From positions 1 through 33,729 of the forward strand of contig JAGXLB010000009.1 in the NCBI GenBank assembly GCA_018334915.1: a DNA stretch of 33,729 nucleotides, read 5' to 3'. Each line of letters starts with the position of its first letter. Position 1 is the first letter of the stretch. The stretch is from Candidatus Bipolaricaulota bacterium (GTDB taxonomy: Bacteria > Bipolaricaulota > Bipolaricaulia > M55B111). Made by a program: the position numbers and the translations under genes. The notes under the pieces were generated by a model. It saw only the letters and a list, made by a program, of their open reading frames with translations. It did no database searches and had not been told where the DNA came from. Shown here piece after piece: positions 2,055 to 27,614 of this stretch.

Positions 2055-2160
2055 CAGGGAGCGCTTTGCTCATGTATGGCAACTAATTTAACCTTTAAAA
2101 ATTAGCAGTAGAGGTAACCCGGCATTTAGGTTAGGGGCGGAGAGCAGTTATTCAAACCGG
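2055..2160 (-). repeat. Hairpin-core repeat, copy A
   Basis: Minus-strand core ATGCCGGGTTACCTCTACTGCTAATTTTTAAAGGTTAAATTAGTTGCC; adjacent + strand GGTGAAAGAACTGAGT at 2178-2193 identical to the right terminal repeat of copy B. Confidence 0.75.
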
Positions 2161-2225
2161 ACACCTAAATCCGCGTCGGTGAAAGAACTGAGTGCTGATT
2201 AACGAAAAGAATGAGCTTATCAGAA

Positions 2226-20808: not shown

Positions 20809-21005
20809 TATTACCTCCAGTTTATATAGAGAAACCTCGGGTTAGGCAGTAATCTCAGACCGCAACCCCTCATAAGAAAGCAGTGTCAACCTAATGATGA
20901 AATTTCGCTTATTTGCCGTATTGTTCCCAACTTTCAAAAATTTAATTCACGCGGAGGCATAACTCAAAGTCAATGACCCATCCAAAAATAAATAGAACTA
21001 CTCTT

Positions 21006-21208
21006 ACTCAGTTATTTCACCAACGGTAAATTTACCCATCTGCCTGAATAACTGCTCCCTGCTCCTTAGCTGGCAACTGATTTAACCTTTAAACCCAGCA
21101 AGAGACGAAATCCGGCAGTCAGCTAAGAGGCAGGAGGCTTGAACTAAAAAATATGGTGATTCCTTGTGACCTTCACCTTACTTCCGAATAGCGGTGAAAG
21201 AACTGAGT
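21006..21208 (-). repeat. Hairpin-core repeat, copy B, bracketed by 16-bp terminal inverted repeats
   Basis: TIRs ACTCAGTTATTTCACC (21006-21021) and GGTGAAAGAACTGAGT (21193-21208), 15/16 complementary. Core stem CTGCTCCTTAGCTG (21059-21072) / CAGCTAAGAGGCAG (21120-21133). Minus-strand core CTGCCGGATTTCGTCTCTTGCTGGGTTTAAAGGTTAAATCAGTTGCC. Confidence 0.85.
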
Positions 21209-21241
21209 TATTGTCAACTAAACTAAGTTAGGAGGGGACCT

Positions 21242-21274
21242 GTGTCAGGGGGACCGGTACAATTAATTTGACCA
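21242..21274. repeat. REP-like sequence GTGTCAGGGGGACCGG...TTTGACCAC
   Basis: Resembles the GTGTCAGGGGGACGG-type repeats I recall from clostridial genomes, with imperfect GTGTCA/TGACCAC ends; single copy here. Confidence 0.4.
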
Positions 21275-21329
21275 CGACTAACTTGTTCGGTAATATGGAC
21301 AAAACCTCAAGGGGGACAGTGGGGGGATT

Positions 21330-27028: not shown

Positions 27029-27175
27029 TTTAGTTCTTTCGCCATTGTTTATGAACCAAGTCTACTTCAGGATGTTATTTTCACGCTTCACTCTATAAGC
27101 CTTCCCTGCTTCGTCTGACAACTTATTTGACCTTAAAACTTAGACACACCCAAAATCCCAGTAGAAAGGTAACGA
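27029..27175 (-). repeat. Hairpin-core repeat, copy C, with left terminal repeat
   Basis: Minus-strand core CTACTGGGATTTTGGGTGTGTCTAAGTTTTAAGGTCAAATAAGTTGTCA; TTTAGTTCTTTCGCC at 27029-27043 matches the B terminus 12/15. Confidence 0.7.
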
Positions 27176-27294
27176 TAAACGGGTTGTAAGTATATGATTG
27201 AGCTGTTACGCATGAATCACGTTTCAAATATTTCCGCTTTGTAAGAGAACCGGGCCGGTAAGGATATTACCATAACCGAGTAAGTTTAACCCTA

Positions 27295-27385
27295 CCCCCC
27301 TCTGACGCTTAGCGGGCTGCCGGGATCTCATCTATGTCCGATCTTCAACGGTTAGATCAGTTGCCCGCTAAGCGTCAGAGGGGGG
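27295..27385 (+). repeat. Hairpin-core repeat, copy E, perfect 23-bp stem
   Basis: CCCCCCTCTGACGCTTAGCGGGC (27295-27317) / GCCCGCTAAGCGTCAGAGGGGGG (27363-27385), exact reverse complements; core CTGCCGGGATCTCATCTATGTCCGATCTTCAACGGTTAGATCAGTTGCC. Confidence 0.93.
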
Positions 27386-27464
27386 TTGAGATAGACCACG
27401 CGAGTCGGAAATTTCCAGGCTCGGGGAGCTCAGATGTACAATCGGCAGGGCGTGGGAGCCAGGT

Positions 27465-27614
27465 TTACTTAAGCCACAGAAGCTGATTTAACCTTAAAAA
27501 ATTGAACATATTCAAAATCCCGGCAGCCAGGTAAGCGGGGAGAGGGGGTAAAGATAAATTCAAGTGATCCTCCACGGCTTTCGACTTGCTTCATAAACTG
27601 TGGAATAATTTAGT
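27465..27614 (-). repeat. Hairpin-core repeat, copy D, with right terminal repeat
   Basis: Minus-strand core CTGCCGGGATTTTGAATATGTTCAATTTTTTAAGGTTAAATCAGCTTC; GTGGAATAATTTAGT at 27600-27614 matches the B terminus 12/15. Confidence 0.75.

Follow-up and report, generated by a model that had tools for sequence, protein, structure and literature searches.

A MITE family with a conserved, invertible hairpin centre in one genus of Candidatus Bipolaricaulota

Bacterial MITEs such as ERIC, Correia and RUP are short, non-coding elements that carry terminal inverted repeats, duplicate their target site, lie between genes and occur in many copies. The family described here resembles them in all of these respects; it differs in the sequence of its terminal repeat and in its A+T-rich target duplication of 5 bp. 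A conserved central hairpin with a covarying stem and an invertible centre is not known from ERIC, Correia or RUP. Among insertion sequences, the relevant comparison is with ISAba11, a member of the IS701 group. Insertions of ISAba11 are flanked by AT-rich 5-bp duplications (e.g., ATTTA and TATAG; PMC7885321), as are those of the MITE, although the MITE carries no gene. REP and REPIN sequences, too, are hairpins that recur between genes and whose paired arms vary. However, REPs are palindromes of 20–40 bp (PMC3733652) and are linked to TnpA_REP enzymes, whereas the present elements end in inverted repeats and duplicate their target site, which sets them apart from REP or IS200/IS605-derived palindromes. 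A further parallel is offered by hairpin-loop inversions and quasipalindrome template switching, which are reported to homogenise the arms of inverted repeats and invert the spacer (PMC8604942). Template switching has also been described as preserving hairpins through changes that look compensatory (PMC8794818). In comparison with those hairpin-loop inversions, the present case consists of one repeat family with many parallel instances in related genomes.

The sequence studied is a stretch of 33,729 nucleotides (hereafter, the window) from a Candidatus Bipolaricaulota genome designated G000. It contains one copy of a MITE family found in a single genus of this phylum. A sequence-only reading had placed a 203-bp element at 21006–21208; the element itself stands, but its boundaries were moved to 21007–21207, because the consensus ends of the family are CTCAG...CTGAG (Table 1). 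The resulting length of 201 bp falls among the typical 200–205 bp of the family, and the copy has no open reading frame of its own, in keeping with a short non-coding MITE. Direct reading bore out the inverted ends proposed earlier, ACTCAGTTATTTCACC (21006–21021) against GGTGAAAGAACTGAGT (21193–21208) with one mismatch, along with the central stem and the palindrome GGTAAATTTACC at 21025–21036. The palindrome is private to this copy, and copies with the same arm read about GGCGGATTTATCC. The two TTA triplets reported at 21004–21006 and 21208–21210 are also present, but not as a target duplication, for which the family uses 5 bp. The flanks of this copy (TCTTA and TTATT) do not match; since it has lost its own duplication, the TTA pair is a coincidence. 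With a left arm of subfamily B and a right arm of subfamily A, the copy is a B/A chimera. The predicted fold of the plus strand reaches –63.4 kcal/mol, compared with –43.1 ± 4.1 kcal/mol for shuffled sequences (z = –4.9; 0 of 200 shuffles); in it, the terminal repeats on the outside are paired, as is the central stem.

Table 1. Features of the window, with positions counted from its first nucleotide.
Feature	Position	Strand	Basis or remark
Second, decayed copy of the family	2055..2193	+	Core 2055–2151; right terminal repeat 2178–2193
Complete MITE copy, 201 bp, consensus ends	21007..21207		64 full-length relatives with the same ends and a 5-bp duplication outside
Left terminal inverted repeat, CTCAGTTATTTCACC	21007..21021	+	1 mismatch to consensus
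Left arm, subfamily B type, including palindrome GGTAAATTTACC	21022..21053		Arm typing
5' arm of central stem	21054..21074	+	Pairs with 21118–21138; 15/21 pairs changed on both sides, 32 copies
Conserved hairpin centre	21077..21115	+	CTGATTT 21077–21083 pairs with AAAT..GG 21108–21115; loop 21084–21107
3' arm of central stem	21118..21138	+	Covariation analysis
Right arm, subfamily A type	21139..21192		Arm typing
Right terminal inverted repeat	21193..21207	-	CTCAGTTCTTTCACC inward; perfect consensus
Promoter-like TTGACC-17-TAATAT, upstream of creatininase operon	21268..21296	+	Conserved in element-free G004; downstream of MITE
Core hairpin relative, degenerate	27092..27190	+	E 8e-4
Core hairpin without terminal repeats	27291..27389	-	E 2e-15
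Core hairpin relative, half decayed	27460..27552	+	E 5e-5

That the element is MITE-like and non-autonomous, one of two possibilities raised from the sequence alone, is strongly supported by its copy number, terminal repeats, 5-bp duplications, and empty and nested sites. A genome search of the kind proposed earlier, using the right terminal repeat as a 16-mer with up to two mismatches, returned 65 matches in G000 and one for the reversed control; therefore, the repeat is not a product of chance. In G001, a sister species, the terminal repeat gave 110 matches against none for the control. The whole element matched 54 pieces of G000, and strong matches to the core number 60-odd in G000 and at least 69 in G001. 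From selected stretches of G000 and sister genomes of the genus, 64 non-redundant full elements were extracted, all of which have the same ends (the 15-bp terminal repeat CTCAGTTCTTTCACC) and the central hairpin; their commonest lengths are 200–204 bp. The target duplication is exact over 5 bp in 24 of these 64 copies and agrees at four or more of the five positions in 40, with a single 6-bp match (1/64). Mean identity between the flanks is 3.64 of 5 in register versus about 1.5 off register, and the exact duplications are 83% A+T.

Occupied and empty versions of one site were also found. In G000, ATCAA flanks both ends of a copy that lies 26 bp downstream of the tmRNA gene; at the corresponding site, G001 has ATCAA once and lacks the element, which makes this a clean empty site. 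Another copy was inserted into the hairpin centre of an older one, with duplication of TAGTA. The pair L073/L147 was rejected as an empty site because a remnant of the terminal repeat persists there. None of the 64 copies lies within an open reading frame; the neighbouring genes are arranged in tandem around 31 copies, convergently around 14 and divergently around nine, with ten unclassed. The decayed copy at 2055–2193 of the window appears to be orthologous to a G001 copy (L213).

Copies of the family are scattered across the genomes of a single genus of salt-lake bacteria. An exact-pattern scan for the core in 85,462 species genomes retrieved only two Ca. Bipolaricaulota assemblies, one carrying the label GSL (taken to mean Great Salt Lake) and the other the label Tobar. 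With a covariance model applied to at most 69 candidates per genome, five genomes of the genus yielded 68, at least 69, 12, 28 and 4 core matches, whereas none was obtained from 55 other genomes of the class; viral contigs gave no core match. The genus genomes are MAGs of about 70–86% completeness, many of whose contigs end within these repeats, and the orthologous comparisons reported below covered selected stretches of them. These findings add a MITE family, with a testable candidate type of transposase, to a phylum known mainly from metagenomes.

The likely mobiliser of the family, acting in trans, is an IS701-like (DDE_5) transposase resembling one that adjoins a matching end in a related genus. 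In G005, a genome of the neighbouring genus, the sole DDE_5 transposase starts about 90 bp inside the end CTCAATTCTTTCACC, which matches the family end at 14 of 15 positions; the element is cut by the end of the contig, so its second end and duplication lie out of view. The partial protein exceeds the cut-off for PF13546 (E 5e-13) and is called only IS701-like because its NCBIfam IS701 scores fall below their cut-offs (73 against 170 for NF049999 and 70.7 against 150 for NF033540). The only full-length relative in the class shares 40% identity with it, and the ends of that relative, CACAAGTTTTTCA, resemble CWCAGTTCTTTCA. On the basis of the transposase at the matching end, the ends of its relative and the 5-bp duplications of ISAba11, we infer an IS701/ISAba11-like mobiliser. 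For the autonomous transposase with the same ends that the sequence-only reading envisaged, this G005 gene is the one candidate; no autonomous partner was found in the genus that carries the MITE. No PF13546 gene was found in the genus genomes searched, so the mobiliser is a candidate from a neighbouring genus. MAGs lose multi-copy elements.

Other candidates were considered. Transposases of the PF01609 type were dropped, none being present in G000, G001 or G003. An 896-bp element in G003 (contig C58, L203:852–1747) is bounded by two perfect family terminal repeats, lacks the core and is packed with other hairpin modules; it was rejected as the autonomous partner because it contains no long open reading frame. 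Relatives of P0001 were sought in viral contigs and plasmids, and none was found. In the G005 insertion sequence, a perfect hairpin, TGACCATGGTAGG/CCTACCATGGTCA (L220:700–822, minus strand), spans the putative translation start of the transposase, including its ribosome-binding site and start codon, a position that fits start-codon sequestration as expected of insertion sequences.

Every full copy carries the central hairpin. Across 32 cores, both-sided changes were observed at 15 of the 21 pairs of the outer stem, a result matched by 0 of 500 shuffles, and the covariation score for the whole structure was 0.300, compared with 0.143 after shuffling and about 0.1 after sliding. The outer stem differs considerably from copy to copy; conservation is limited to its inner part, CTTACCTGGC. 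An integron attC-like reading was abandoned since the core conserves its centre while the outer stem varies. When A copies are compared with B copies, each having a good target duplication, identity is 0.77 in the centre and 0.51 and 0.58 in the arms, against 0.55 for shuffled sequence; with the arms at the shuffled level and the centre 77% identical, the centre is evidently conserved as the element spreads. Among orthologous insertions, most pairs show a centre that changes as fast as the arms, and L022/L156 has identities of 0.81 in the centre versus 0.84 and 0.82 in the arms. The hairpin would matter to the element, for its spread or its tolerance, and not to the neighbouring host gene; its conserved centre may enhance transposition, protect the element or act in some other way. 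Against a purely functional account of this kind, some of the apex conservation could stem from centres being exchanged among copies.

Among 62 typed copies, 14 have a centre whose orientation is reversed with respect to the arms. Moreover, at three orthologous loci of sister species (L104/L172, L008/L134 and L071/L195), the centre has been inverted in place, as the alignment improves on inverting ~42–80 bp; two control orthologous loci showed no such gain. A polymerase that switches template from one stem arm to the other while replicating would keep the stems complementary and, at the same time, flip the centres. Such template switching explains both the covariation and the inversions without selection by the host and, having been reported for arm homogenisation and spacer inversion, is the most economical explanation. 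Covariation in this family is therefore no proof of selection on an RNA. The rule proposed from the sequence alone, that compensatory stem changes at orthologous sites argue against a MITE, proved misleading: such copies exist alongside in-place inversions of the centre, which point to template switching despite the compensatory stems. Usually, covariation of a stem across copies is held to prove that an RNA structure is under selection. Because the family combines covariation, in-place inversion and a centre that mostly decays at the rate of the arms over dozens of copies, many of them at orthologous sites in sister species, it offers a natural dataset for measuring the amount of "compensatory" change that arises from template switching in the absence of selection.

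These inversions might alternatively be attributed to a dedicated site-specific recombinase operating the centre as an invertible switch, for which 14 flipped copies and three orthologous loci could be cited. We judge this quite improbable, given that only the inner CTTACCTGGC is conserved in an otherwise variable outer stem, that the inverted segment is small (about 40–80 bp) and that template switching accounts for the correction of the stems too. Somewhat less remote, but still unlikely, is the notion that a host function acquired after insertion, such as a terminator, mRNA-end protection or a site for a nucleoid protein, selects the hairpin and causes the covariation. Three species share an insertion lying about 8 bp past a stop codon (L069/L143/L125), which agrees with this notion, its stems being intact and its centre better kept than its arms. 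However, the centre decays at the rate of the arms in most orthologous sets, inversions are tolerated, and the window region has no terminator-like site.

The sequence-only reading had also considered a ~200-nt riboregulator with an outer P1 stem, and it correctly placed the element in the divergent region between a hydantoinase-like gene (hydantoinase/oxoprolinase; PF05378 and PF01968) and the creatininase-fdh operon, in which creatininase (PF02633) is followed by NuoE-, NuoF- and molybdopterin-oxidoreductase-like genes. The divergent gene pair recurs in a congener, G004 (70% and 61% protein identity); about 435 bp that hold no element separate the two genes there, and the promoter block TTGACC..GGTAATATGG is the same as in the window. 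Because G004 keeps the pair without any element, and because the MITE is upstream of the creatininase promoter, a leader RNA is unlikely, and the window copy is probably a passenger upstream of that promoter. A structured RNA or riboswitch controlling the operon would fit the strong fold and the strong stem covariation, but we consider it highly improbable, as the supposed P1 stem consists of the terminal inverted repeats, copies adjoin unrelated genes in every orientation, and hairpin centres are inverted in place. A known RNA family was rejected as well: Rfam gave no match at the gathering threshold, and the weak hits below it, to miRNA precursors, are generic hairpin look-alikes. By contrast, the combined reading is very probably correct, namely that the window carries a MITE copy, moved in trans by an IS701-like mobiliser, with a hairpin that serves the element, reshaped by template switching and sitting as a passenger at this locus.

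Cores with neither terminal repeat account for 13 of 54 in G000 and 17 of 84 in G001, and some of these score strongly; the hairpin may accordingly be more than a part of the MITE. One tentative proposal, which we would not favour over the reading above, treats the centre as a functional module, a DNA or RNA structure that either is required for mobilisation or is exchanged between unrelated repeat families of this genus, with selection acting at the level of the element while template switching reshapes the stems and the centre. Slightly more doubtful is that the core hairpin constitutes a separate small mobile or exchangeable module carried by several repeat families. Cores that have other arms and no terminal repeats (L068/L070/L071, L032/L047 and window 27291–27389) would be explained in this way, as would the existence of chimeric elements. 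Nevertheless, all 64 full terminal-repeat elements carry the core, 41 of the 54 G000 cores retain at least one terminal repeat, and neither ends nor duplications of a free core were found.

Further hairpin repeats accompany the family. Three core hairpins stand in a row at 27092–27552 of the window, separating the molybdopterin oxidoreductase gene from the next, and at the orthologous G001 locus (L120/L159) a MITE has been inserted inside a core. Each genome of four species of the genus carries 10–15 copies of the repeat motif CGGCCTCCGATAGGATTTTCC; most are exact, the motif is strongly conserved, and the neighbouring genus lacks it. The motif was noted at L203:852–1747 and at L032/L047, where a nested hairpin whose stems vary encloses it. 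Another hairpin repeat, with an apex of about RYGGGR and a variable stem, was observed at about 27425–27452 of the window and also at L203, L056 and L071; hairpins of this type are flanked by ATCGGC and a CTGCT-like sequence.
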